Origin: Actinomycetota bacterium
GTDB lineage: Bacteria > Actinomycetota > Coriobacteriia > Anaerosomatales > Anaerosomataceae
NCBI GenBank assembly: GCA_004348925.1
Contig: RCMX01000006.1
Span: 355,930-419,929 of the forward strand
Direction: 5' to 3'
DNA length: 64,000 bases
Shown: positions 4,177 through 64,000 of the stretch, piece by piece
Position numbering within the stretch: the stretch's first letter is position 1
Layout of the letters: each line of letters begins with the position of its first letter
Program-made: the position numbers and the translations under genes
The notes under the pieces: generated by a model
Seen by the model: the letters and a program-made list of their open reading frames with translations, nothing else
Database searches by the model: none
What the model was told of the DNA's origin: nothing

Positions 4177-5784
4177 CTACGCCGGGAAGTCGAGCGATGC
4201 GATGTACCGCCGCTGGAACTCCGGATGCGATGCCAGCTCGAGCGTCCGTACGGTGCCCGCGATCTGTTCGGCGCGGCGTCTGGCTGCGCTGCTCACGAGC
4301 GCGATGCGCGCACCCTCCTTCGAGGTGTTGCCCACAAAGGTGAGCCGCTCCGCCCACTCCTCGGGCACCATGCCCAGGCCCGCGAGCGTTCGACCGTCGA
4401 CGTGCAGGCCGAAGCCGCCCGCTACGAGCACCTCGCGGATGTCGCCGGGCGCAAGGCCCGTCTCGGCGAGTAGCAGGTCGATCGCCGTGCGGATGGCGCC
4501 CTTCGCGAGCTGGATCTGGCGGACGTCCTTCTGCGTGATCACGATCCCGGCATCGGCGTCGACGACGAAGGCGCGGAGCTCGTCACGTTCGACGACGCGG
4601 CGGCCTATGGGGTCGTCGGGGTCGCCGTGCAGGCGGCCGCTCGGGTCGAGCACGCCAGATGCGAGCAGCACGGCCACGAGGTCGAGTGCGCCGCTGCCGC
4701 AGATGCCCACCGGCTGGAAGCCGCCGATCGTCGCGATGCGGATGTCGCCGTCTTCGAGCCACACGCGCTCGATAGCGCCCGGCTCGGCACGCATGCCCGA
4801 CTCGATGCCCGCGCCCTCAAGCGCCGGACCGGCCGCCGCAGACGCTGCAAGCATTCCCTCGGCGGTGACGAGCACGAGCTCGCCGTTCGTGCCGAGGTCG
4901 AGCAGCAGCACGGGGCCCGCAGCGGGGTCGGGCGCGGTGGCGAGCAGCCCCGCCACGATATCGCCGCCCACGAATGCCGAGATGCCCGGCAGCGTATAGC
5001 AGGTGGCCTGCATGAGATGCTCCATGCCCAGGCGCTCGGCGGAGATGTAGACCGGGTCGATCATCGCCCCTTCGTACGGAGCCGAGGCAAGCGGCGCAAG
5101 ATCGGCATCCACGAACGAGCCGGTCATCGTGGTGTTGCCGGCGACTGCGATCTCGCGCATGTCCTCGGGAAGCGCGTCGAGCGGCTCCAGCAACGCGAGC
5201 ACGATGCGCTCCACCTGCTGCACCAAAGGACGGTGCAGGATCTCGCCGCCCTCGTGCATCGCCATCGTCACGCGCGTCATCACGTCGGCGCCCCATGGAT
5301 ACTGCACGTTGAGCGCACCGCCGCGAACGAGCTCGTCACCGTTCTCGAGGTCGACGATCGACACCGCGATGGTGGTCGTGCCGATGTCGACGGCGCCACC
5401 GAGCAGGTACGGTCGCCCGTCGATGGGGTCGATCCCGCGGTCGGACGGGTGCTCGACCTCGACGCCCGCCGAGAACCCCTCGCCTACAACACGGATCGAG
5501 CCCGGCGCGACCACGGACACGACCGCATCGCCCAGCAGTCGCACACGACAGCCGAGACGCACCCCACGCGCCACCTGTGCCGGACCAAGCAGCGTGACCT
5601 CGTCCACGGTCGGCGGCGTGAGGGTGCCCTCGGCCTGCACCACGCAGCGCCCGCAGCGCCCGAGCCCGCCGCACGGCGCATCCATCGCCACACCCGCGGC
5701 AAGCGCCGCCGCATGCGCGGTCGTCCCCGGGGCGACGCGAACCGTCACGCCTTCCGGCTCGAACCGGACCTCGATCTCCTCCAC
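4177..5784 (-). CDS. RACo-type ASKHA ATPase with N-terminal [2Fe-2S] domain (reductive activator of corrinoid proteins)
   Basis: Members of this family (RACo, RamA, DUF4445 proteins) use ATP and an Fe-S centre to reduce the inactive Co(II) state of corrinoid methyl carriers back to Co(I). The N-terminal ferredoxin-like domain has Cys38, Cys44, Cys47 and Cys79 in a CX5CX2C...C pattern. An ASKHA fold follows, with GGAVDIGTTTIAVSIVD (about 130-147), AVAGNTTMTGSF, LLLDLGTNGEL and GICGSGALDLVAVLL. I chose a GTG start 30 bases inside the longest frame because GGGAGG lies 5 bases upstream; the outer start would be TTG. No corrinoid methyltransferase lies beside it; the only corrinoid protein in the window is HgcA. 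Confidence 0.88.
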   Translation of the reverse strand: MEEIEVRFEPEGVTVRVAPGTTAHAAALAAGVAMDAPCGGLGRCGRCVVQAEGTLTPPTVDEVTLLGPAQVARGVRLGCRVRLLGDAVVSVVAPGSIRVVGEGFSAGVEVEHPSDRGIDPIDGRPYLLGGAVDIGTTTIAVSIVDLENGDELVRGGALNVQYPWGADVMTRVTMAMHEGGEILHRPLVQQVERIVLALLEPLDALPEDMREIAVAGNTTMTGSFVDADLAPLASAPYEGAMIDPVYISAERLGMEHLMQATCYTLPGISAFVGGDIVAGLLATAPDPAAGPVLLLDLGTNGELVLVTAEGMLAASAAAGPALEGAGIESGMRAEPGAIERVWLEDGDIRIATIGGFQPVGICGSGALDLVAVLLASGVLDPSGRLHGDPDDPIGRRVVERDELRAFVVDADAGIVITQKDVRQIQLAKGAIRTAIDLLLAETGLAPGDIREVLVAGGFGLHVDGRTLAGLGMVPEEWAERLTFVGNTSKEGARIALVSSAARRRAEQIAGTVRTLELASHPEFQRRYIASLDFPA

Positions 5785-5879
5785 GCGTCCTCCCCGCACT
5801 GCCGTCGCAGTCAATTGTAGCCGCGACGAGCACCACTCAGCGCAGGTATTCCCGTAATGGTGCAGAATGATGAACCATC

Positions 5880-7433
5880 ATGATTCTCAACGCGGTTGTC
5901 TTCCTGTGCGGTGCAGCGCTCATGGGCCTCGAGCTCCTGGGCGCACGCGTGCTTGCCCCTACGATGGGCAACTCGATCTTCGTCTGGGGCAGCGTTATAT
6001 CGAGCTTCATGATCGCACTGTCTGTCGGCTACTGGCTGGGCGGTCGCGTCGCCGACAGGTACGGTGCGCCGAGAAGCCTGGGCGTGGTCATCGCCGCAGC
6101 CGGGCTCTGGACTGCGCTGTGCCCGCTCGCCGCCAACGCCTGCCTCGAGTGGTCGGCGGGTCTCGGACCGCGGCTTGGGCCGCTCGTGGCCACGACGCTC
6201 GTCTTCTTTGGACCCGCGTTGCTGCTCGCTATGGTCTCGCCCATGGGAGTGCGTCTCGCGGCGGCGAACGGGATCTCGCATATCGGTCGCTCGGCAGGAA
6301 GCCTGTACGCAGTATCGACCGCCGGTAGCATCGTCGGCACGCTTGCGACCTCGTTCTGGCTGATTCCGCTGCTGCAGGTGGAGCCGCTCATCGTCGGCAT
6401 CGGCGCGCTGCTGGCGCTCACGGCACTGCTCACCCTCGGCCTCACCGCCGAGGAGGAACCGGAGCTGGCACCGCGCGAACTCGGCATGCGCTCCACGAGC
6501 GCGGTGATCGCGTTGGCGCTCCTTGGCGGTGCGGCCGCGATCGCGATGTTCCTGGTGGTGAACGAGCCTGCAAGCGTGAACGCCGACGGCGAGCAGGTGC
6601 TCTTCCGGGCCGACACGCAGTACCACCGCATCACGGTGACCGAGGCGGGCGGCGCGCGGTCGCTGCGGTTCGACAAGAGCCGTCAGTCGATGATCGACCT
6701 CTCTGATGGCTACAGCAGCCTCATCGACTACCCGAACTACCTGCACCTCGCACTAGCGGTGAAACCGGATGCAAAACGGGTGCTCGTACTCGGACTTGGC
6801 GTCGGCGCGGTCACGAAGCGCATGTGGCACGACTATCCGGAGATGCGGATCGACTCGGTTGAGATCGACCCTGTCGTGGTGGATGTCGCCGAGCGGTACT
6901 TCGGCCTGCCGGAAGACCCGCGACTGCGCACGACCGTCGCTGACGCACGGCGCTACGTGCAGACCACCGAAGAAACGTACGACGTCGTCATCGTCGACGC
7001 GTACTACGCCGACTCGCTCCCCTTCCACCTGACGACGACTGAGTTCTTCAGCGAGGTGAAGGCGCGGCTCGCCCCCGACGGTGTCGTTGCCTACAACGTG
7101 ATCTCACCGGTCCAGGGCGCGCACAGCGACCTCTTCCGCAGCATGTACCGCACGGCAAGCGGCATCTGGGATCACGTTTGGACGTTCCCGATCGGCATCG
7201 CTGCCGACCCAACGAGCGAGGTCAACCGCAATATCATCGTGCTGGCGAGCGACAACGACGTGTCACGCGCGACGTTGCTTGAGCGCATCGAGAGCCGCCT
7301 GGACGGACGCGTGCAGATTCCCGGCTTCGAGGACTACGGGGGCGACCTGTGGACCGAAGTCGTTCCGGTCGCCGACGTGCCCGAGCTCAGCGACGCATTC
7401 GCCCCCACGGACTCGCTCATCAACGTCAACTAG
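5880..7433 (+). CDS. Membrane-fused spermidine-synthase-like protein
   Basis: A 517-residue protein in two parts. Residues 1-215 form about seven transmembrane helices resembling the N-terminus of fused MFS/spermidine synthases (GAALMGLELLGARVLAPTMG). Residues 225-500 are a spermidine-synthase-like Rossmann domain with VLVLGLGVGAVTKRMW, DSVEIDPVVVDVAERYF and VIVDAYYADSLPFHLTT. Whether it makes a polyamine is doubtful: such fusions are widespread and mostly uncharacterised. Its catalytic half closely resembles the soluble paralogue starting at 28303. It overlaps the end of the convergent ACR3 gene by four bases. Confidence 0.85.
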   Translation: MILNAVVFLCGAALMGLELLGARVLAPTMGNSIFVWGSVISSFMIALSVGYWLGGRVADRYGAPRSLGVVIAAAGLWTALCPLAANACLEWSAGLGPRLGPLVATTLVFFGPALLLAMVSPMGVRLAAANGISHIGRSAGSLYAVSTAGSIVGTLATSFWLIPLLQVEPLIVGIGALLALTALLTLGLTAEEEPELAPRELGMRSTSAVIALALLGGAAAIAMFLVVNEPASVNADGEQVLFRADTQYHRITVTEAGGARSLRFDKSRQSMIDLSDGYSSLIDYPNYLHLALAVKPDAKRVLVLGLGVGAVTKRMWHDYPEMRIDSVEIDPVVVDVAERYFGLPEDPRLRTTVADARRYVQTTEETYDVVIVDAYYADSLPFHLTTTEFFSEVKARLAPDGVVAYNVISPVQGAHSDLFRSMYRTASGIWDHVWTFPIGIAADPTSEVNRNIIVLASDNDVSRATLLERIESRLDGRVQIPGFEDYGGDLWTEVVPVADVPELSDAFAPTDSLINVN

Positions 7434-8497
7434 ACAGCGCGGTTCTCGGCCCAGGGTCGGGTCTTCTTCGCGATCCACACGAGCGACAGCATGACGGGCA
7501 CCTCGGTGAGCACGCCGACAACGGTCGCGAGCGTTGCGCCCGAGGTGAGTCCGAACAGCGCGATCGCAACAGCCACGGCCAGCTCGAAGAAGTTCGAAGC
7601 GCCGATGAACCCCGCCGGCGCCGCCACCGCATGCGGCAGGCGCCAGGCGCATCCCCAGCCGTACGAGATCGCGAAGATGAAGTACGTCTGGATGATGAGC
7701 GGCACGGCGATCAGCACGATGTGGAAGGGGTTCGCGACGATCGTCTGGCCCTGGAAGATGAAGATGATGACAAGCGTGGCAAGCAACGCTGTGATCGTTA
7801 CCGGCGCAAGCGACGGCAGGAAGGTGTGCTCGAACCACTCCAGGCCCTTGCGCTTGATCAGCTGCACGCGGGAGATCCAGCCAGCGACCAGCGGCACGAC
7901 GACGAAGAGCACCACCGATAGGAAGACCGTGTCGTACGGCACGACGATGTCGCTCAGACCGAGCAGCAGCATGACGATCGGAGCGAACGCAACGAGTAGG
8001 ATGAGATCGTTCACTGCGACCTGCACCAGCGTGTACGCCGGATCCCCGTCGGCAAGGTACGACCATACGAACACCATCGCGGTGCACGGTGCGGCACCGA
8101 GCAGCACGGCGCCTGCCAGGTACTCACGTCCGAGTTCAACGGGAATCCACGCCTTGAACACCACGTTGAAGAAGAACCAGGCGATCGCATACATGGTGAA
8201 CGGCTTGATGAGCCAGTTGGTGACCGTGGTGACGACGAGTCCCTGCTTTCGCTCCCCGACCCGCTTGAGCGACGCGAAGTCGATCTGCAGCATCATCGGA
8301 TAGATCATCAGCCAGATGAGCACAGCGACCGGGATCGAGATCTGCGCGTAGGTGAACTTCGAGAGCCACGTGGCCACACCGGGCCACGAGTCGCCGATGA
8401 GCGTGCCTGCCACTATGCACAGCGCCACCCACAGCGAGAGGTAACGCTCGAAGACGCCCATCCGCCTCTTCTCGGCGGGCTTGCCCGTCTCAGTCAT
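7430..8497 (-). CDS. acr3: Arsenite efflux transporter, ACR3 family
   Basis: ACR3 proteins (bile/arsenite/riboflavin transporter superfamily) expel arsenite through the cytoplasmic membrane. The 355-residue length and about ten hydrophobic helices fit. The family hallmark is GAAPCTAMVFVWSYLADGD, with the Cys required for arsenite transport, together with APAGFIGASNFFELAVAVAI. It is the last gene of the arsR - thioredoxin - permease - in-frame-TGA gene - ACR3 operon, so expression is probably arsenic-induced through ArsR. Confidence 0.95.
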   Translation of the reverse strand: MTETGKPAEKRRMGVFERYLSLWVALCIVAGTLIGDSWPGVATWLSKFTYAQISIPVAVLIWLMIYPMMLQIDFASLKRVGERKQGLVVTTVTNWLIKPFTMYAIAWFFFNVVFKAWIPVELGREYLAGAVLLGAAPCTAMVFVWSYLADGDPAYTLVQVAVNDLILLVAFAPIVMLLLGLSDIVVPYDTVFLSVVLFVVVPLVAGWISRVQLIKRKGLEWFEHTFLPSLAPVTITALLATLVIIFIFQGQTIVANPFHIVLIAVPLIIQTYFIFAISYGWGCAWRLPHAVAAPAGFIGASNFFELAVAVAIALFGLTSGATLATVVGVLTEVPVMLSLVWIAKKTRPWAENRAV

Positions 8498-8557
8498 CGC
8501 ACGGCTCCTTCATCGGTCGCTGACTCCATCCACCGTCGCACATCTCGTGTCGCTCGA

Positions 8558-8905
8558 CTAGATACTCCGCACCCGCTCAACGGTCGCCGTAACGTCGATG
8601 CCGCCTGTGCACACCAGACCGCCATCCACGATGACGTACGGCAGCGCCGCACCGTCGATGAGCGCATCGAGTGCGGCATGACGCGCGTCGCCCTGCACGC
8701 CGTAGATGTCGGTCGAGATGATGGTGACCGGCCGCTCGTTGGCGGACTCCAGCGCACTCTCCAGAACCTGGAGAGTATCCTGCGGCTTGATCTCGCAACA
8801 CGCGTTCTCGGGCTCGGTGCCGAGAACCGTAGCGATGTCGTCGCCGCAGCTATCGCCGCTTCAACCGCACGGCTCATCGACTACGTACACGATAATCTCA
8901 TCCAT
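8558..8905 (-). CDS. Candidate selenoprotein: thioredoxin/ArsD-sized protein with in-frame TGA at codon 15
   Basis: An ATG with AAGGAG about 5 bases upstream opens a frame of 116 codons ending in TAG. Codon 15 (8861-8863) is TGA and the frame continues unbroken for 100 more codons. The residues around it read DEPCG-[TGA]-SGDSCGDD, i.e. Cys13, the TGA and Cys20 in a redox-like setting. Further on are NACCEI and a C-terminal LPYVIVDGGLVCTGG, reminiscent of the end of thioredoxin-like or ArsD-like folds. No ATG, GTG or TTG follows the TGA in frame until well into the protein, so a restart would lose the fold. The gene lies inside an otherwise intact arsenic operon. Selenocysteine insertion is the simplest reading; a nonsense mutation or sequencing error is the alternative. 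Confidence 0.7.
8832..8863 (-). promoter_or_regulatory. Possible bacterial SECIS-like hairpin after the in-frame TGA
   Basis: Directly after the TGA, the transcript can pair GCGAU (8856-8852) with AUCGC (8836-8832) around a G-rich loop of 15 bases. An outer helix GAGCCGU / ACGGUUC can enclose the TGA. The distance from the UGA to the loop is in the range known for bacterial SECIS elements. No energy calculation was possible and GC-rich DNA readily gives such stems, so this is only supporting evidence. Confidence 0.35.
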
Positions 8906-8938
8906 GGTGTCTCCTTGTCGTTCGCTTCCGAGGCCCGC

Positions 8939-9907
8939 CTAGTGCAGCACCGCGTTGAACAGGTAGCCGACCGCCACGATCCCGATCGAGTTGATCCCGA
9001 AGTACACCCCGATGAGCTTCGGCTTGAGCACTTTGCGAAGGATGATCGCCTCGGGAAGCGACAAACCGACGACCGCCATCATGAAGGCGAGCACCGTGCC
9101 CATCGCCATTCCCTTCTCGGTGAGCACGCTCACGAGCGGGATGACGCCGGCAGCGTTGCTGTACAGCGGCACGCCGACGAGCACCGCAAGCGGCACCGCG
9201 AAGGGGTTGTCCGGACCGGCGTACTGCACGAGGAAGTCGTCGGGGATGTAGCCGTGCATGACCGCGCCGATGCCGATGCCGACGACAACATACGGCCACA
9301 CCTTGCCGACGATCTCGGCAACGTAGCCGCGTGCGTAGGCAAACCGCTCCGGCCAGCTTTGCTCGGGCAACTCGGCCGCGTCGCCCATGCGAATCTGGTA
9401 GACGTACTCCTCGACCCAGCTTTCGAGACCGAGCTTGCCGATGATGATGCCGCTCGTGATCGCGATGAAGAGTCCCGACACCACGTAGAGCGCCGCAATC
9501 TTCCAGCCGAAGAGCCCGAAGAGCAGGATGATCGCGACCTCGTTGACCATCGGGCTTGCCACAAGGAACGAGAACGTGACGCCAAGCGGCACGCCGCTCT
9601 CGACAAAGCCGATGAACAGCGGCACCGCCGAGCAGGAACAGAACGGCGTCACAATCCCGAGTAGCGCCGCTGAGACGTTGCCGGCGTAGAGGCGTGAATG
9701 CGAGAGCATCGTGCGCGTGCGCTCGGGCGGAAAGAACGACCGGATGATCGCCACGACGAAGATGACGACCGCCAGGAGCAACAGTACCTTCGGCACGTCG
9801 TACAAGAAGAAGTCGAGCGCCGGGCCTGCCTTGCCCTCGGGCGAGAGTCCGACGAGGTCGTAGGTGATCCAGTCGGCCAGCCACTGCAGCGGCGCGAAGA
9901 CATCCAT
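8939..9907 (-). CDS. ArsP-type permease (DUF318 / PF03773)
   Basis: A 322-residue membrane protein with about eight to nine helices. The family signature is TPFCSCSAVPLFIGFVESG near residue 85, a Cys-rich segment that in ArsP is linked to export of trivalent organoarsenicals. VASPMVNEVAIILLFGLFG and GVPLYSNAAGVIPLVSVL follow. Related permeases are common next to ArsR and a small CxxC thioredoxin, exactly as here. The substrate could be methylated arsenicals (an arsM gene lies 52 kb away) or another thiophilic compound; the sequence does not decide. Confidence 0.88.
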   Translation of the reverse strand: MDVFAPLQWLADWITYDLVGLSPEGKAGPALDFFLYDVPKVLLLLAVVIFVVAIIRSFFPPERTRTMLSHSRLYAGNVSAALLGIVTPFCSCSAVPLFIGFVESGVPLGVTFSFLVASPMVNEVAIILLFGLFGWKIAALYVVSGLFIAITSGIIIGKLGLESWVEEYVYQIRMGDAAELPEQSWPERFAYARGYVAEIVGKVWPYVVVGIGIGAVMHGYIPDDFLVQYAGPDNPFAVPLAVLVGVPLYSNAAGVIPLVSVLTEKGMAMGTVLAFMMAVVGLSLPEAIILRKVLKPKLIGVYFGINSIGIVAVGYLFNAVLH

Positions 9908-9910
9908 CTG

Positions 9911-10150
9911 CTAGCGCGCCTCGGCGATGAGTCGCTTGACCTGGTCGTACGCGGGCACGCGACCCGAGAGCTTCACCACGTCGTCGATCACAAGACCCGG
10001 CGTCGAGATGATGCCGAACGCCATGATCTCGGGATACCCGGTGACCTTCTCGACCGTGGCATCGATGCCGAGCTCCCCGACCGCCTTGCGGGCGAGCTCC
10101 TCAAGCTTGCGGCAGTTGGCGCACCCCGAACCCAGGATCTTGATGAGCAT
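9911..10150 (-). CDS. Small CxxC thioredoxin-like protein
   Basis: A 79-residue thioredoxin/glutaredoxin-fold protein of the redox-active disulfide type. The active site is Cys10-Ala-Asn-Cys13 in LGSGCANCRKLEELARKAV, and the cis-Pro region is STPGLVIDD. This start was chosen because GGAAAGG lies 6 bases upstream and the fold begins here. The gene is coupled by a few bases to the permease. It probably supplies or exchanges thiols for the neighbouring arsenic-handling proteins (inference from context). Confidence 0.9.
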   Translation of the reverse strand: MLIKILGSGCANCRKLEELARKAVGELGIDATVEKVTGYPEIMAFGIISTPGLVIDDVVKLSGRVPAYDQVKRLIAEAR

Positions 10151-10181
10151 GGCCGACCTTTCCAGTGGAAGGAGATGCGAG

Positions 10182-10514
10182 CTACAGCGCACCGAGTTCC
10201 GCAGCGACAGCCGCCAGCGCACCACGCTCTACGGTGTAGTACACCCACGTGCCGTCCTTTCTGGCCGAGACGAGCCCTGCTTCGCGCAGGATCGCCATGT
10301 GGTGCGACACCGTCGAGGGCACCAGGCCAAGATGCTCGGAGAGCTTGCAAGCGCAGACTTCGTCCTGCGCGCAGCAGGTCTTGCCGTGCTCGGCCGCGCA
10401 GGAGGCAAGGAAGCGGAGGATCTCCCGGCGCTGTGCCGAGGCGAGCGCTTTGAGCGCAGCATCAAGCGATGCTTCGTCCAGAGCGGCGAATCCATCTGCT
10501 CCCGGGACAGCCAT
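10182..10514 (-). CDS. arsR: ArsR-family metalloregulator
   Basis: A 110-residue winged-helix repressor that should leave DNA when it binds As(III) or a similar ion. The recognition helix region is HLGLVPSTVSHHMAILREAG (about 61-80). Candidate metal-binding cysteines are Cys47-Cys48, Cys54 and Cys56 just before it (TCCAQDEVCACKL), matching the position of the arsenic site in ArsR but with extra Cys. An in-frame upstream extension of 24 codons would cover the operator and was rejected. It heads the arsenic operon and probably autoregulates through the dyad at 10529-10544. Confidence 0.93.
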   Translation of the reverse strand: MAVPGADGFAALDEASLDAALKALASAQRREILRFLASCAAEHGKTCCAQDEVCACKLSEHLGLVPSTVSHHMAILREAGLVSARKDGTWVYYTVERGALAAVAAELGAL

Positions 10515-56141: not shown

Positions 56142-56528
56142 ATGGACTTCTACTCGACGCTCATCAAGCCCGCCTGGGCGCCTGCGCCGCCGGTCTTCGG
56201 CATCGTATGGAGCATCCTCTATCCGATCATCATCGGCGCATACGGCTACGTCATCTTCAAAGTCGCACGCGGCGAGTACCCCGCATCGCTTCTGGTGCCG
56301 GTACTCATCAACGTCGTCGCGAACATCGCGTTCACACCGATCCAGTTCGGGTTGCGCAACCTGTGGCTTGCCGAGGCGGACATCGTGCTCGTTCTCGCGA
56401 CGATCATCTGGTCGATGATCGCGATCTGGCCACACTCACGGTTGGCATCGCTTGCGCTGTCGCCGTATCTGGTGTGGGTGACGATCGCCACGGCGCTGCA
56501 GACAAGCATCACGCTCCTCAACCGTTAG
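56142..56528 (+). CDS. tspO: TspO/MBR-family protein
   Basis: A 128-residue, five-helix membrane protein: KPAWAPAPPVFGIVWSILYP, then NVVANIAFTPIQFGLRNLWL (the usual NxxF...RNL region), and SPYLVWVTIATALQTSI. These correspond to the TspO signature W-x-P-P...WxxLY and the final SPYLxW. TspO proteins bind porphyrins and other hydrophobic ligands. It is probably cotranscribed with the SulP gene. Confidence 0.92.
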   Translation: MDFYSTLIKPAWAPAPPVFGIVWSILYPIIIGAYGYVIFKVARGEYPASLLVPVLINVVANIAFTPIQFGLRNLWLAEADIVLVLATIIWSMIAIWPHSRLASLALSPYLVWVTIATALQTSITLLNR

Positions 56529-58558: not shown

Positions 58559-58939
58559 TCACACACCCGGCCGCAACAGCACCGCCTGCGCGGTTGCAAG
58601 CACGACTTTGATCATCACTACCGAGCCGAGAACGACCAGCCACTGGGTCGCGGTCTGAAGCGGTCCGACCCTCAGTCCGGCAGCGACTCCCACGATCGCG
58701 AGGCCCGCGCACAGTCCCAGAACGATGCCTGCCAGAACGACCGGATTCGACCAGTCGCCATTCGCACGCTCCAGCACGGCACCGATACCGCCGACGCTGC
58801 ACGCGGCAATACCGGCAACCGCGGTCACCCAGAGCAGCGCACGCTGATCCAGCGCGCCGGGGACGGGACGCCCGCTTGCCGCAAGGAGTGCCGCAACCAC
58901 CGCAACGATTCCGAGACCCGCACCAACCACTGTCTTCAT
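58559..58939 (-). CDS. Four-helix membrane protein divergent from the hgc locus
   Basis: A 126-residue protein with four hydrophobic helices (about 2-22, 33-55, 68-90 and 98-118) and no recognised motif. GGAGG precedes the ATG. It diverges from the TetR gene ahead of hgcA across a gap of 113 bases that holds a nearly perfect 18-base inverted repeat, so the TetR may control it too. It could be an efflux or membrane partner for whatever the TetR senses; this is inference. Confidence 0.7.
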   Translation of the reverse strand: MKTVVGAGLGIVAVVAALLAASGRPVPGALDQRALLWVTAVAGIAACSVGGIGAVLERANGDWSNPVVLAGIVLGLCAGLAIVGVAAGLRVGPLQTATQWLVVLGSVVMIKVVLATAQAVLLRPGV

Positions 58940-58969: not shown

Positions 58970-59023
58970 TACTTTACGTTGTATAGTTGCACCGTAGCAC
59001 CGATGACTATACACTGTAAAGTA
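58970..59023. promoter_or_regulatory. Large inverted repeat in the TetR-hgcA / membrane-protein divergent promoter
   Basis: TACTTTACGTTGTATAGT (58970-58987) and ACTATACACTGTAAAGTA (59006-59023) are reverse complements except for two central positions. The AT-rich repeats stand out from the GC-rich background and lie between the two divergent genes, as expected for operators of the adjacent TetR. Confidence 0.75.
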
Positions 59024-59052: not shown

Positions 59053-59712
59053 ATGTCACCTCGCCCGAAAGCACAGGATCGGGAGCCCCTGACCCGCGAG
59101 TCCATCCTCGGCACGGCAGTCGAGATCGTCGATCGTGAGGGACTCGACGCTTTGACCATGCGTCGCCTGGCCGCCGAATTCGATGTAGAAGCCATGGCGC
59201 TCTACTACCACTTCCCCAACAAGCAAGCCATTCTCGACGGCGTCGTGGACACGATAGTCGGCTCATCGGTGGACCCGGCGATGCTCGCTGGCTCGATGGA
59301 TTGGCGCGATATGATGCGCAGCGGCATACTCGGCGTGCGACAGGCGCTGCTTGCCCACCCGAACGCCGTGCCGCTCGTGACCACGCGAACCGCGAAGTCT
59401 CCCGGCGCAGCCGGATGGGCGGAAGGTCCTCTGCAGATTCTTCACGGGGCGGGCCTTCGCGGCCGATCGCTGGCAACGGCGTACCACATGCTGGTCTCGT
59501 ACTCTCTCGGCTGGCATCTGTTCGCCGGAGACGCAAGCACAAGCATCTGGCACGATGGGGTCGGTGACGTCTCCGAGAACGACGTGCCGGCGCTCACCGC
59601 CACACTCGCAGCCGATCTCGCGGACTGGAATGACGGTTTCGAAGAAGGCCTGGACATCGTGCTCGACGGAATCGGCCGGATGATCGACACGCGGAACGGC
59701 AGTGAGGCATGA
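59053..59712 (+). CDS. TetR-family regulator translationally coupled to hgcA
   Basis: A 219-residue repressor with HTH LTRESILGTAVEIVDREGLD, ALTMRRLAAEFDVEAMALYY and the TetR_C-type ligand domain with GWHLFAGDAST and EEGLDIVLDGIGRM. GGAGGTC lies upstream of the ATG. Its stop overlaps the hgcA ATG (ATGA), so regulator and mercury-methylation genes are produced together. Most hgcAB loci I know of have an ArsR-type or no regulator; a TetR is unusual. Confidence 0.92.
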   Translation: MSPRPKAQDREPLTRESILGTAVEIVDREGLDALTMRRLAAEFDVEAMALYYHFPNKQAILDGVVDTIVGSSVDPAMLAGSMDWRDMMRSGILGVRQALLAHPNAVPLVTTRTAKSPGAAGWAEGPLQILHGAGLRGRSLATAYHMLVSYSLGWHLFAGDASTSIWHDGVGDVSENDVPALTATLAADLADWNDGFEEGLDIVLDGIGRMIDTRNGSEA

Positions 59713-60689
59713 GTACTGTCGTTCCGCAGGTCTCAAGCGAGCTCACCTGGCGCGACACGCTCGCGCGATGGGCGCTCCGGTGGGACATCGGCCGCAGTCG
59801 CGGGGCCGTCGAGCCGGGACTGTACCGCGTGGGCGAGCCAACGCCGGAGTCGCCTGTTCTCGTCACCGCGAACTACCGCATGACATTCGATCTCGTCCGA
59901 CGCGATCTCGGCGGCCTCGACGTGTGGCTGCTCGTGCTCGATACGAACGGCGTCAATGTGTGGTGCGCGGCCGGCAAGGGGACGTTCGGCACCAAGGAGC
60001 TCATCGTCCGTGCGGCGAAAAGCAACCTGTCCTCACATGTGACCCATAGGACGCTTATCGTCCCGCAGCTCGGGGCGACGGGGGTATCGGCACACGAGGC
60101 ACGACAGCTCGGCGACTACAGGGTCGTCTTCGGCCCGATCAGATCACGCGACATCCCCGCCTTCGTGGCTGCGGGCATGAAGACGACGCCCGAGATGCGC
60201 GCTGTCACATTCACCTTCGCCGAGCGGCTGGCGCTCACCCCCGTCGAGCTGGTCGGCACCGTCAAAGGCTGGAAGCTCCTCATCCTCCTCGGGCTGCTCG
60301 CCGCCGGGTGGTTGCTCGACCGCAGCTCGCTTGCCACAGCAAGTCAGCCTGCTGCCGCCTACATCGCAGGCGTTCTCGCGGGCGGCCTGCTCACGCCTGC
60401 TCTCCTCCCCTGGCTCCCCGGCCATAGCTTCTCGGTCAAGGGTGCGCTCGCGGGTGCGGCGGCAGGCGCAGCGGCGTCGCTGGCGCTTGGCTCGGCACCG
60501 CTCGGTGTTGCCGCTGGCACGCTGCTTGCGGCTGGCATCGCGTCGTTCGTTGGTTTGAACTTCACCGGGGCCACTCCGTTCACCTCGCCGTCGGGCGTCG
60601 AGAAGGAGTTGCGCCTCGCGCTGCCAGCGCAAGCCGCAGCTGCTGTCATAGCAGGCGTACTATGGATCGTGCAGTTCTTCCTCGGCTAG
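59709..60689 (+). CDS. hgcA: Mercury-methylating corrinoid protein HgcA
   Basis: HgcA carries a methyl group on a cobalamin cofactor and transfers it to Hg(II), giving methylmercury. The 326-residue protein has a soluble corrinoid-binding domain. In it, the diagnostic cap-helix motif NVWCAAGKGTFGT occurs at residues 83-95; Cys86 is the expected lower cobalt ligand. Five C-terminal transmembrane helices follow (about 186-326), with WKLLILLGLLAAGWLLD first and LWIVQFFLG last. Length, motif and topology all fit HgcA; CFeSP subunits lack the membrane part. It is coupled to a TetR gene upstream and followed after 7 bases by hgcB. Confidence 0.96.
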   Translation: MSTVVPQVSSELTWRDTLARWALRWDIGRSRGAVEPGLYRVGEPTPESPVLVTANYRMTFDLVRRDLGGLDVWLLVLDTNGVNVWCAAGKGTFGTKELIVRAAKSNLSSHVTHRTLIVPQLGATGVSAHEARQLGDYRVVFGPIRSRDIPAFVAAGMKTTPEMRAVTFTFAERLALTPVELVGTVKGWKLLILLGLLAAGWLLDRSSLATASQPAAAYIAGVLAGGLLTPALLPWLPGHSFSVKGALAGAAAGAAASLALGSAPLGVAAGTLLAAGIASFVGLNFTGATPFTSPSGVEKELRLALPAQAAAAVIAGVLWIVQFFLG

Positions 60690-60696
60690 GAGCGTC

Positions 60697-61026
60697 ATGC
60701 GCGGATTCCGCTATCTCAGCGGCGTAGCGAGCCTCAAGCTCGACGCCGAGAAGTGCACCGGTTGTAGGGTGTGCCTGTCGGTGTGCCCGCATGCCGTCTT
60801 CGCCGGGACAGAAGACCGTCGCGTGCGCGTTGCGGATCTGGACGCCTGCATGGAGTGCGGTGCGTGCGCGAAGAACTGCGCATTCGGGGCAATCTCGCTC
60901 AAGCCCGGCGTGGGGTGCGCCGAGGCGATCATCAACGGCTGGCTGCGCGGCACCGAGCCATCGTGCGACGACGGCTGCTGCGGCCAGGCGCCAGCGACCA
61001 GAGGCGACACGGCCGCTCCTGCTTGA
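60697..61026 (+). CDS. hgcB: HgcB ferredoxin for mercury methylation
   Basis: HgcB supplies electrons to the HgcA corrinoid and probably binds Hg(II). The 109-residue protein has two [4Fe-4S] motifs, Cys20-23-26-30 (KCTGCRVCLSVCPH) and Cys51-54-57-61 (ACMECGACAKNCA). The ECGAC phrase, the extra Cys74 in GVGCAEAIINGWLRG and the vicinal C-terminal pair Cys94-Cys95 (DDGCCGQ) are the family's distinguishing marks. AGGAG precedes the ATG. Adjacent to hgcA in the standard order. Confidence 0.95.
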   Translation: MRGFRYLSGVASLKLDAEKCTGCRVCLSVCPHAVFAGTEDRRVRVADLDACMECGACAKNCAFGAISLKPGVGCAEAIINGWLRGTEPSCDDGCCGQAPATRGDTAAPA

Positions 61027-61112
61027 TAGCACGTCTCGCCGCGGTCGCGGCATGCACCCCGCATCCAGGATGTGTCCCGACGAGGGATTCTTGGTATTGC
61101 CATGTCGTCGTT

Positions 61113-61145
61113 ATCAGTATACTCTGATTTCTCAGATAATGCTGA
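61113..61145. promoter_or_regulatory. Tandem TCAG-N6-CTGA dyads ahead of hgcC
   Basis: TCAG-TATACT-CTGA (61114-61127, extended by A/T to 16 bases) and TCAG-ATAATG-CTGA (61132-61145), centres 18 bases apart, within the hgcB-hgcC gap. TATACT inside the first dyad is a good -10 box. Suggests separate, ligand-dependent control of hgcC-arsM. Confidence 0.65.
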
Positions 61146-61167
61146 ATTTGCGAGAAGGAGTTCCCCG

Positions 61168-61434
61168 ATGACCGAGTCCGAATCCTGCGAGTCCTGCGCC
61201 CCCGCGGTCGAGTGCTGCTCGCTTGAGGCCGTTGTGACCATCGACGAGCGCGGACAATTCGTGCTCCCAAAGGATCTGCGTGTGCGCGCTGGTATCGGGG
61301 CCGGGGATCGTCTCGCGGTCGTCTCCTACCGGGGCGAAGATGGTGGTATCTGCTGCATCACGCTGCTCAAGGCCGAGAGTATGGCCGGCGCGGTGAAATC
61401 CGTCATCGATCCCGCCCTGCGCGGGATTCTCTAA
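61168..61434 (+). CDS. hgcC: AbrB-like HgcAB-associated protein (HgcC type)
   Basis: An 88-residue protein with a SpoVT/AbrB-like swapped-hairpin domain (VVTIDERGQFVLPKDLRVRA, then GIGAGDRLAVVSY) and many cysteines: Cys7, Cys10, the pair Cys16-17 and the pair Cys62-63. Proteins of this kind beside hgcAB carry the name HgcAB-associated protein HgcC in public annotation as I recall it; this could not be checked. It could be a metal(loid)-sensing DNA-binding protein of the tandem dyads just upstream. The ATG has AAGGAG upstream; it ends 9 bases before arsM. Confidence 0.8.
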   Translation: MTESESCESCAPAVECCSLEAVVTIDERGQFVLPKDLRVRAGIGAGDRLAVVSYRGEDGGICCITLLKAESMAGAVKSVIDPALRGIL

Positions 61435-61443
61435 GGAGGCATC

Positions 61444-62277
61444 ATGAGCGACCACGATGCGACATCGATTAAGGAGGCTGTGCGCGACAGGTATGCAGGC
61501 CACGCCAGGACGAAGACGTCATGTTGCGGCGGCGGCACGTCGTGCTGCGACTCCCCGACGAGTTCCGCAGACGTTCTCGCGGATTACGACGCGGGCGATC
61601 TCTCGGCGATTCCGGCCGACGCCGACCTGGGACTAGGCTGCGGCAATCCCCTGGCGCTCGAATCGGTACGCCCCGGCGAGGTGGTCGTCGACCTCGGCAG
61701 CGGCGGCGGCATCGACTGTTTCCTGGCGGCCAAGCGCTTGGGACCCGGGGGACGCGTCATCGGCGTCGATATGACACCCGAGATGATCGCCCTTGCTCGC
61801 CGCAACGCCGAGCGATCGGGAGCCGATAACGTCGAGTTCCGTCTCGGCGAGATCGAGGCGCTGCCGGTGCAAGACGGCACGGTCGACCTCGTCATCTCGA
61901 ACTGCGTGATCAACCTGGTGCCTGACAAGACGCGAGCGTTCGCCGAGGCGCTGCGAATCCTCAAGCCCGGTGGTCGGATCTCGGTGTCGGACATCGTGAC
62001 GACGGCGCCACTGCCCGTCGCGGCCCGTCAGTCGGTAGGTGCGTACGTGGCGTGCCTCGGCGGAGCGATGGTGCTGGACGAGTACCTTGCTGCGGCACGC
62101 GAGGCCGGCTTCGAAGACGTACGTGTGGTCTCGGAGTCATCCTACGCGACCTGCGACGAAGAGGCCGAGGAGCTCGTGGCCGCGTTCGGCGCGGACGCCG
62201 GCGTGGCGCATGAAGACGCGCTTGCCGCCGCGCAGCTCTTCCGCAGCGTCACCGTTCACGCACGGCGACCGCTCTAG
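61444..62277 (+). CDS. arsM: Arsenite S-adenosylmethionine methyltransferase
   Basis: ArsM methylates As(III) using SAM. The 277-residue protein has the SAM loop VVDLGSGGGIDCFLAA (about 81-96), VIGVDMTPEMIALAR and SNCVINLVPDK, the ArsM signature. As(III)-binding cysteines lie at Cys66 (LGLGCGNPL), Cys92 and the SNC Cys. An extra N-terminal Cys-rich stretch (TSCCGGGTSCCDS) is typical of the longer bacterial forms. AAGGAGG precedes the ATG. It shares the hgcC operon; nearby ArsP-type permease and ACR3 are 52 kb away. Confidence 0.95.
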   Translation: MSDHDATSIKEAVRDRYAGHARTKTSCCGGGTSCCDSPTSSADVLADYDAGDLSAIPADADLGLGCGNPLALESVRPGEVVVDLGSGGGIDCFLAAKRLGPGGRVIGVDMTPEMIALARRNAERSGADNVEFRLGEIEALPVQDGTVDLVISNCVINLVPDKTRAFAEALRILKPGGRISVSDIVTTAPLPVAARQSVGAYVACLGGAMVLDEYLAAAREAGFEDVRVVSESSYATCDEEAEELVAAFGADAGVAHEDALAAAQLFRSVTVHARRPL

Positions 62278-62390: not shown

Positions 62391-62582
62391 GTGGAGAAGA
62401 CCACGAACACGGGACACGGCGCCGCGATGCACGTCGGCGTAGCCATCGCCGCCGGTGCAGGGCTTGGCATCGTCGTTGGGGAACTCATCGGCAGTATGCT
62501 CCTCGGGCTGCTCCTGGGTTCTGCGCTCGGCGTTGTCGCCGGAACTGCGTTCCAGACAGGGTTTGGCAGGGCACGCCGCTAG
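62391..62582 (+). CDS. Small glycine-zipper membrane protein
   Basis: A 63-residue protein with two hydrophobic segments rich in Gly and Ala (VAIAAGAGLGIVVGELIG and LLLGSALGVVAGTAF), like glycine-zipper membrane proteins. The start is GTG. An inverted repeat GCGGTCTCAGACCGC lies 35 bases upstream. Not recognised; small size limits confidence. Confidence 0.6.
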   Translation: MEKTTNTGHGAAMHVGVAIAAGAGLGIVVGELIGSMLLGLLLGSALGVVAGTAFQTGFGRARR

Positions 62583-62667: not shown

Positions 62668-64000
62668 CTAACCCCGCCCCTTGTCCTTGTAGAACTGCTT
62701 GGCGCTCTTGTGGATGATCTTCCACTTGCGTGTCTCCTCTTGCCTGAGACGCACATCGGTCTTCATCGCGGCGACCTGCGCTTCGCGCTGGAGCTTGTGA
62801 TACGACTCGAGCCGTGCGGCCGGGAGCGTTCCCGCCTCCACCGCCGCGATCACCGCGCACCCCGGCTCGCCGGTGTGCGTGCAGTCGCCGAAGCGGCACT
62901 CCTCGGCAAGCTCGGTGATGTCGGCGAACGCGGTGGCGACGCCCTCCTCGGCATCGGTCATCGCGACGGCGCGGAGTCCGGGAGTGTCCACGAGCACGCC
63001 GCCGCCGGGAAGCGGCACGATCTCGCGGGCGACCGTCTTGTGGCGACCCTTGCCGTCGGCTGCGCGCACCTCGGCCGTGGCCTGGCTGTCGGTACCGGTG
63101 AGCAGGTTGATGAGCGTGGACTTGCCAGCGCCGGAGGGACCCACGAGCGCGACGGTGCGCCCGGGTCCGACGTACGCGTCGAGCGCGTCGGTTCCCGTGC
63201 CGTCGAGCGCGCTTGTCACGAGCACGTCCACGCCGAGGGCGATCTCCACGACCGCCTGGCGGGCAGCCTCGGCATCCTCGGAGAGGTCGGACTTCGTGAG
63301 CACGACGACCGGCACCGCACCGCTCTCCCACGCGAGTGCGAGCTCGCGCTCGATGCGCCGCAGGTTGGGACCCTCGGCGATCGGGTGCACGATGAACGCG
63401 GTGTCGATGTTCGCGGCAAGCACCTGCGCGGATGTCATCTTGCCGGGGTCGCCGCGCATGAACGCCGAGGTACGCGGCAGCACGGCCTCCACGAACGGGA
63501 TCTCGTGGGTCGATGCGGGGTCGTACATCACCCAGTCGCCCACGGCGGGCAGCTGGTCGGGGGTGAGTTCCTTGTAGAGTCGCGGCGACGGCTCCACACG
63601 AACGACGCCGTCCTCGGAGTTCGCGAGCACGGAGCCGCGGTCGGCGCGCATCACACGGGCAAGCCGCAAGCCGGCTTCTTCGTGCGGCGCCGCGAGTGCG
63701 CGCACGCGATCGTTCAGGCCGAGATGCTCCAGGTCGAGGCGGTCCAGGCGCGCGAACGTCGCGTCGATGACGTCGGGAGCCGTGTTGCGCGCCGCGGCCA
63801 GGAGCGCATCGGCTTTCTCGCGCTGCGCCTCGGCGGCCGTGGGCCGCCCGGCTGCGTCGAACGCGTCCGCTCGCGCCTCGAGCACCCGCGAGAGCAGCAC
63901 CGCGCGCGCGGCGTCGAGCTCGCCACCTGCGGCGAGAAACGCCACGAGCGACTCGGGCGTGAGCGCGTCGATGAGCGACGGCTCCGCGTTCGCGGTCAGG
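62668..64000 (-). CDS. rsgA: RsgA ribosome-assembly GTPase, with an N-terminal extension running off the window
   Basis: RsgA is a circularly permuted GTPase that matures the 30S ribosomal subunit. Order of motifs: OB-like domain (LANSEDGVVRVEPSPR), G4 VVLTKSDLSED, G1 LVGPSGAGKSTLINLLTG, G3 DTPGLR, then the zinc site with CRFGDCTHTGEPGC. These match the YloQ/RsgA family. The usual N-terminus would begin near LEHLGLNDRVRAL, but no start codon fits there and the frame continues open to the edge. It passes through a helical segment of about 80 residues or more (FLAAGGELDAARAVLLSRVL) unlike RsgA. This suggests a fusion or long extension; the true start is outside the window or at a GTG near 63945. 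Confidence 0.88.
   Translation of the reverse strand, partial: LTANAEPSLIDALTPESLVAFLAAGGELDAARAVLLSRVLEARADAFDAAGRPTAAEAQREKADALLAAARNTAPDVIDATFARLDRLDLEHLGLNDRVRALAAPHEEAGLRLARVMRADRGSVLANSEDGVVRVEPSPRLYKELTPDQLPAVGDWVMYDPASTHEIPFVEAVLPRTSAFMRGDPGKMTSAQVLAANIDTAFIVHPIAEGPNLRRIERELALAWESGAVPVVVLTKSDLSEDAEAARQAVVEIALGVDVLVTSALDGTGTDALDAYVGPGRTVALVGPSGAGKSTLINLLTGTDSQATAEVRAADGKGRHKTVAREIVPLPGGGVLVDTPGLRAVAMTDAEEGVATAFADITELAEECRFGDCTHTGEPGCAVIAAVEAGTLPAARLESYHKLQREAQVAAMKTDVRLRQEETRKWKIIHKSAKQFYKDKGRG

Follow-up and report, generated by a model that had tools for sequence, protein, structure and literature searches.

In strain ND132, the key cysteines of HgcB are Cys73, Cys94 and Cys95 (PMC7305189), and methylation of Co(I) by SAM was demonstrated for HgcAB of P. 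mercurii (PMC11588087). The available text of McDaniel et al. (2020, PMC7438021) lists nine hgcA-positive Coriobacteriia, all of them OPB41, and describes arsM, arsR and acr3 adjoining hgcAB. A literature search found one paper joining hgcA and AbrB; its available part deals with rice-paddy and archaeal methylators, in which an AbrB/PrlF/MazE-like gene was proposed to be a toxin-antitoxin component (PMC10349881). No paper was found on hgcAB together with TetR, or on arsM and AbrB with arsenic methylation.

We analyzed a 64-kb stretch of DNA, here called the window, from a genome of the class Coriobacteriia, order OPB41/Anaerosomatales. The host is a subsurface-type actinobacterium. A first-pass annotation of the window had reported a five-gene locus tetR-hgcA-hgcB-hgcC-arsM and called its actinobacterial context uncommon. 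All five open reading frames were found where they had been placed (Table 1). The context is indeed uncommon, but to judge from the available text of PMC7438021 it was already published for OPB41. Full-length HgcA is present in 38 of 398 genomes of Coriobacteriia. The presence of hgcA in OPB41 and of arsM beside hgcAB has thus been known since 2020; the new element is the wiring of the cluster. The stop codon of tetR overlaps the start of hgcA (ATGA), and 141 bp separate hgcB from hgcC. It is probable that the cluster consists of a TetR-controlled hgcAB unit and an adjacent arsM unit autoregulated by HgcC.

Table 1. Positions of genes and operator-like sites in the window
Feature	Position	Strand	Description
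TspO/MBR	56142..56528	+	Left syntenic anchor for both modules in relatives
Small membrane protein, divergent	58559..58939	-	126 aa, 4-5 hydrophobic segments, without known family
TetR-type operator-like palindrome, site 1	58971..58987		ACTTTACGTTGTATAGT (ACTWTACNNNGTAWAGT)
TetR-type operator-like palindrome, site 2	59006..59022		ACTATACACTGTAAAGT
tetR	59053..59712	+	TetR-family repressor; TetR_N and TetR_C_1 domains
hgcA	59709..60689	+	Corrinoid protein; NVWCAAGK cap helix (Cys86), C-terminal membrane domain
hgcB	60697..61026	+	2x[4Fe-4S] ferredoxin; Cys74, tail Cys90/94/95
Operator-like phased array	61114..61145		TCAGT/TCTGA/TCAGA/GCTGA in steps of exactly 9 bp, across the hgcC promoter-like region
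hgcC	61168..61434	+	NF040962; AbrB/SpoVT-type DNA-binding protein; Cys7, Cys10, Cys16-17, Cys62-63
arsM	61444..62277	+	SAM-dependent arsenite methyltransferase; conserved Cys35/66/154/204
RsgA-like GTPase (named from sequence)	62668..63945	-	Right syntenic anchor

A genomic island was rejected on composition, GC content ranging from 0.60 to 0.72 without a break at the locus. No RNA element was recognized by Rfam, and the 64-kb window contains no tRNA. A search of the window genome for MerB gave no match, nor did its control. Among 149 genomes of the class, the divergent small membrane protein occurred in this species only and was therefore dropped as a conserved partner.

HgcA scored 401.7 bits against NF040863 (HgcA_corrinoid, cut-off 275) over positions 1-324 of 325, and HgcB 119.4 bits against the HgcB_ferredoxin model (cut-off 99), both above the curated cut-offs. 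The annotated motif NVWCAAGK was found at residues 83-90 of HgcA; it fits N(V/I)WCA(A/S)GK with Cys86 as the Co-ligating cap-helix cysteine, and it is invariant except for Ala87 among 16 aligned Coriobacteriia. Five C-terminal helices had also been claimed; the profile covers the whole membrane domain in support of this, but simple hydropathy resolves only 4-5 segments. A tree with CFeSP as outgroup placed the window HgcA inside a Coriobacteriia clade of HgcA, with CFeSP split off at an SH-aLRT of 100. HgcB contains cysteines at positions 20/23/26/30, 51/54/57/61, 74, 90, 94 and 95, and thus the family marks of two 4Fe-4S motifs, a Cys73 equivalent and at least one C-terminal Cys. These marks had been annotated correctly except that the second motif ends in CA instead of CP, as it does in several relatives, and that the CC pair is not terminal, 14 further residues following it. 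Judged by sequence, hgcAB is supported as a bona fide mercury-methylation pair, and Hg methylation by it is predicted.

The identification of arsM was borne out as well: ArsM scored 322 bits against PRK11873 (cut-off 263), and Cys35/66/154/204 align with conserved cysteines of solved arsenic methyltransferases. We take these residues to be equivalent to the catalytic cysteines 44/72/174/224 of CmArsM.

TetR combines the domain PF00440 (TetR_N) with the C-terminal ligand domain PF02909. Two perfect 17-bp palindromes precede tetR-hgcA-hgcB; 0.02 such pairs are expected in the window. No other exact copy exists genome-wide, and the sole further site resembling them carries two mismatches.

The third gene, described at first as AbrB-like, Cys-rich and hgcC-like, belongs to the HgcC family (NF040962, 94.7 bits, cut-off 70). 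Upstream of it lies the phased array, which is conserved before both arsM-type and hgcA-type copies of hgcC. Across 63 loci, 66 of 83 distances between TCWGA pentamers were multiples of 9, as compared to 0.4 of 3.2 in shuffled sequences. At least three cores in register were present in 12/12 hgcA-type and 32/45 arsM-type loci (shuffles, 0.7%); the 13 arsM-type loci without them may partly reflect mechanical start-codon assignment. The window genome contains the array at hgcC and one other match. A consensus promoter scan returned one sigma-70-like match, located exactly on the array. No description of this precisely 9-bp-spaced promoter pattern, common to arsenic and mercury methylators, was found in the literature searched.

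The partners of hgcC were surveyed by family-driven searches in two phyla. Among 61 loci, which are related within a phylum and hence give counts that are not independent, the next gene was arsM in 47, hgcA directly in 10 and unclassed in 4; hgcA or hgcAB adjoined hgcC in 12 loci, namely the 10 hgcA-type loci and two with both partners. Although named for mercury, hgcC is thus mostly a partner of arsM. A search of 299 genomes from the phylum of a Desulfosporosinus genome gave no HgcC, and the control was silent there as well. The window HgcC itself falls within an arsM-linked clade (98/89). Furthermore, each module occurs singly at the same chromosomal spot in relatives, as TspO-hgcAB-RsgA in one genome (G115) and as TspO-hgcC-arsM in two others (G057 and G075).

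A joint metal(loid) methylation island had been proposed, and the genes do share one chromosomal spot. With arsM beside hgcC in 47/61 loci and hgcA in 10/61, however, the cluster is better described as two neighboring modules, a regulator and operator-like sites belonging to each, than as a single joint island. The alternative is one five-gene operon under TetR, in which HgcC acts on hgcAB as its name implies. All genes share a strand and are tightly spaced within each half; hgcAB is retained upstream of hgcC-arsM in a further genome (G071), and a single open frame spans hgcB and arsM in another (G019). The gap between hgcB and hgcC holds no strong terminator, matches in a consensus scan being at chance level, and read-through from hgcAB into hgcC-arsM is therefore possible, as is a transcript common to both halves. 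Nevertheless, given the 141-bp gap a single operon is not obvious, a conserved array and a promoter-like site belong to hgcC itself, and this array is absent upstream of tetR and hgcA in the window genome. Moreover, arsM follows hgcC in 9/9 Coriobacteriia with HgcC, whereas hgcAB adjoins it in only two of them. We therefore regard the one-operon reading as unlikely; the cluster looks like two units, tetR-hgcA-hgcB and hgcC-arsM, the latter with its own promoter-like array. HgcA has the corrinoid domain of CFeSP (PF03599, 49.6 bits), and in another reading it would be a corrinoid protein of the CFeSP/CdhD type, or an HgcAB-like protein for another substrate, that forms no methylmercury. This is highly improbable considering scores of only 185.8 bits for HgcAB_like and 75.4 for the CODH/ACS gamma subunit, together with the complete HgcB partner; because of the curated HMMs, the active-site residues and the outgroup tree, the concern that HgcA might group with CFeSP could be set aside.

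HgcC may be read in other ways, too. Its cysteines number six, and 4/4 aligned members retain Cys7, Cys16-17 and Cys62-63, as would suit a metallochaperone that supplies HgcB or ArsM with Hg(II) or As(III) and is no transcription factor. This role appears quite improbable, since the AbrB N-terminal DNA-binding domain TIGR01439 was detected above cut-off (31.1 vs 28.3), the phased array is conserved at hgcC's own promoter in two phyla, and the best, albeit weak, matches of a low-confidence structure model (pLDDT 59) were the N-domains of SpoVT and AbrB. An antitoxin of a toxin-antitoxin pair beside hgcA would be in line with a similarity to MazE that stays below the Pfam cut-off (PF04014, 21.3 vs 24.7); yet almost all of the loci examined have arsM or hgcA directly downstream, and inspection of the neighbors without toxin models revealed no toxin-like partner, so that we consider an antitoxin extremely improbable. 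The best reading of HgcC is that of an AbrB-type autoregulator common to arsenic and mercury methylation, with predicted functions in binding and sensing.

In the two-unit arrangement, tetR-hgcA-hgcB would encode the known HgcAB mercury methylase. By binding the two palindromes, TetR may repress its own unit as well as the gene of the divergent membrane protein. HgcB would reduce the HgcA corrinoid, SAM would then methylate Co(I), and the methyl group would be transferred to Hg(II) bound at cysteines of HgcB. The second unit, hgcC-arsM, is predicted to serve arsenite methylation. At its own promoter, HgcC probably occupies the TCWGA array with 9-bp phasing as an oligomer, and As(III) or another thiophile on its Cys pairs may release it. 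In two phyla, the same cassette of HgcC and array stands mostly before arsM and sometimes before hgcAB.

More tentatively, HgcC might sense As(III) and Hg(II) through its thiols and, by way of a single TCWGA operator with 9-bp phasing, control the methylation genes for both arsenic and mercury in different phyla. Some bacteria would then have drawn hgcAB into a regulon that responds to arsenic; we find this possible but somewhat doubtful. If true, methylmercury formation would be governed by a regulator serving mainly arsenic genes. A shared regulator and operator would make the proposed As-Hg link concretely and cheaply testable, and would help to predict when methylators turn hgcAB on. The annotation "HgcAB-associated protein HgcC" would then need correcting. 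As a marker for mercury methylation, HgcC would pick out many genomes that have arsM only.

The window locus is a further candidate hgcAB in OPB41. It shares its order with the hgcA-positive Coriobacteriia of PMC7438021, where arsM is also among the hgcAB neighbors; as far as the available text of that paper extends, TetR, the hgcC-arsM module and the operator analysis are found on the window side only. With ND132 hgcAB (PMC7305189, PMC11588087) it has in common the cap-helix Cys and membrane domain of HgcA and a dicluster HgcB ferredoxin with Cys73/94/95 equivalents, numbered nearly alike. According to a citation in the available part of PMC10349881, an ArsR-like regulator controls hgcAB in ND132, whereas a TetR-type gene and paired palindromes precede hgcA here. 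The rice-paddy and archaeal gene resembles hgcC as a small AbrB-type gene near hgcA; according to the same part of PMC10349881, it lies upstream of hgcA and was read as toxin-antitoxin, whereas the window hgcC follows hgcB, is partnered by arsM and has a phased operator-like array. The NCBIfam family NF040962, of which the window gene is a member, carries a name that fits the minority partner, since most of the surveyed loci pair hgcC with arsM.

The five genes which the first-pass annotation had recognized in the cluster, tetR, hgcA, hgcB, an hgcC-like gene and arsM, were all found at the positions it had assigned. Both HgcA (401.7 bits, cut-off 275) and HgcB (119.4 bits, cut-off 99) exceeded the cut-offs of the curated NCBIfam models, as did HgcC (94.7 bits, cut-off 70) and ArsM (322 bits, cut-off 263). 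The product of tetR, the first gene, contains the domains TetR_N and TetR_C_1. The NVWCAAGK motif comprises HgcA residues 83-90, cysteines of HgcB are located at positions 20/23/26/30, 51/54/57/61, 74, 90, 94 and 95, and the ArsM alignment matched the conserved cysteines of solved arsenic methyltransferases. A weak structural model of HgcC (four sequences, pLDDT 59) had the N-domains of SpoVT and AbrB as best PDB neighbors, in line with the TIGR01439 match. A small membrane protein is encoded after arsM (Table).

Full-length HgcA was present in 38 of 398 genomes of the class Coriobacteriia (39 loci); two genomes of the window's family were hgcA-negative. The host genome (2.25 Mb, 99% complete) belongs to the same genus as G071 and G115. 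A PF03599 search of it revealed no protein besides HgcA, hence it contains no CFeSP, the corrinoid protein sharing this domain. In a tree that had six Coriobacteriia CFeSP large subunits as its outgroup, every HgcA protein split from CFeSP (SH-aLRT 100); the placement with CFeSP named in advance as counter-evidence was thus not observed. The window protein grouped with genus and family members (99) within an eight-member Coriobacteriia clade (98), and the remaining Coriobacteriia HgcA were scattered over several positions, which agrees with an earlier discussion of horizontal transfer (PMC7438021). Additionally, 8.4 kb including hgcAB were 99.4% identical between L060 (G111:C41) and L062 (G093:C106), loci whose genomes are placed in two separate families, and a second hgcA is present in G111. 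This identity probably reflects a misbinned contig in one genome or a very recent transfer.

The cluster appears to consist of two units. In the first, tetR and hgcA overlap (ATGA) and hgcA and hgcB are 7 bp apart; after 141 bp follows the second, with 9 bp between hgcC and arsM. Two perfect copies of a palindrome precede tetR, with 0.02 such pairs expected in the window; a genome-wide scan allowing two mismatches revealed one further site only, with two mismatches. The array upstream of hgcC overlies a sigma-70-like site, the only one in the region, and the array's three-core version matched this region and one other site only in the host genome.

Features of the window and of related loci
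Feature	Sequence	Position	Strand	Remark
Palindrome ACTWTACNNNGTAWAGT	window	58971-58987, 59006-59022		between divergent membrane gene and tetR
TCAGT-TCTGA-TCAGA-GCTGA	window	61114-61145		operator-like array, exact 9-bp steps
hgcC	window	61168-61434		NF040962 family
Small membrane protein	window	62391-62582		glycine-rich, 63 aa, GTG start
Separate ars cluster	window	7430-10514	minus	
ArsR	window	10182-10514	minus	
ArsE-type thioredoxin	window	9911-10150	minus	
ArsP permease	window	8939-9907	minus	
ORF between arsP and acr3	window	8558-8905	minus	115 aa
ACR3	window	7430-8497	minus	
TetR-family gene	L032 (G071)	7397-7993		precedes hgcA
YhgE-like membrane protein	L032 (G071)	5186-7321		large
hgcB and arsM in one frame	L037 (G019:C2)	about 7968-6805	minus	no stop between

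Searches driven by the HgcC family rather than by hgcA revealed arsM following at 9/9 HgcC loci of the Coriobacteriia, with hgcAB also upstream in two (window and G071). The 23 loci of other Actinomycetota comprised 17 with arsM, four with hgcA and two undetermined; 29 loci from the phylum of a Deltaproteobacteria-named genome, a set leaving out two loci brought in via hgcA, comprised 21, six and two, respectively. The HgcC family, where sampled, is thus mainly partnered with arsM (47 arsM, 10 hgcA, 4 undetermined), which is a notable result. Conversely, HgcC was nearby in very few of 118 loci fetched through hgcA (upstream in L098 and L113, downstream in L032, also termed L088). The window copy fell inside an arsM-linked Coriobacteriia clade (98/89) of the HgcC tree, which requires two partner changes. 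At L174 (G505), two nitroreductase-like genes follow HgcC in place of arsM or hgcA.

Pentamers were ranked without preselection in 63 regions upstream of hgcC; related loci are included, so the counts are non-independent. ATCAG/CTGAT (122 versus 21.9) and TCAGA/TCTGA (111 versus 21.0) were most enriched, and the -35-like TTGAC was also among the enriched pentamers. Distances between TCWGA pairs were 9 (28 pairs), 18 (20), 27 (17) and 36 (1), i.e., multiples of 9 in 66 of 83 as compared to 0.4 of 3.2 in shuffles. At least three CWG cores in register occurred in 12/12 hgcA-type and 32/45 arsM-type loci (shuffles 0.7%), and the pattern agreed between two phyla and both partner types. Where sampled, the HgcC family has a conserved 9-bp-phased operator-like array, also at hgcC-hgcAB loci of other lineages. 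By eye, the array of L083, L113, L172, L185 and other loci follows or overlaps a TTGACA-17/18-TATAAT-like pair and covers -10/+1, which suggests repression.

The region is bracketed by TspO and RsgA. The order is SulP-TspO-..-tetR-hgcAB-hgcC-arsM-RsgA in the window, TspO-hgcA-hgcB-RsgA in G115, SulP-TspO-(10.7 kb)-hgcA-hgcB-MBL-fold hydrolase-hgcC-arsM-RsgA in G071, and TspO-hgcC-arsM..SulP in G057 and G075, which lack hgcA. Hence, the hgcAB and hgcC-arsM modules share a single chromosomal location, but each is also found without the other. Members of the genus differ in the regulator of hgcAB, as hgcA of the sister genome G071 is preceded by another TetR-family gene and by a large membrane protein gene that was named YhgE-like by eye. 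At L037, the HgcB tail ..CGCGTSCCGSTAEDHSEHPTEIWSDI runs into MSTDDD.. of ArsM, and ArsR and ACR3-like genes are divergent; this single instance may be an HgcB-ArsM fusion or a same-frame coupled pair, unless it reflects an assembly error.

The window also contains a separate ars cluster. Its arsP/acr3 interval holds a frame that stays open only when selenocysteine is assigned to a TGA (MDEIIVYVVDEPCGUSGDSC...), making the product a candidate selenoprotein as judged from sequence; this frame gave no family match and no significant fold 3' of the TGA (z -1.0).

Taken together, hgcAB of the window is a genuine locus of known kind with predicted mercury methylation, and it adjoins an hgcC-arsM module that also exists without hgcAB; the regulators have putative roles. 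Purified HgcAB uses SAM as methyl donor (PMC11588087), thus a missing Wood-Ljungdahl pathway is no obstacle. The hgcA-bearing lineage has already been reported: McDaniel et al. 2020 (PMC7438021) describe nine Coriobacteriia with hgcA, all OPB41, and neighbors of hgcAB including arsM, arsR and acr3. The first OPB41 isolates are Anaerosoma tenue and Parvivirga hydrogeniphila (PMC9686372). Furthermore, an AbrB/PrlF/MazE-like gene upstream of hgcA was described chiefly in archaea, and a toxin-antitoxin link was suggested (PMC10349881).
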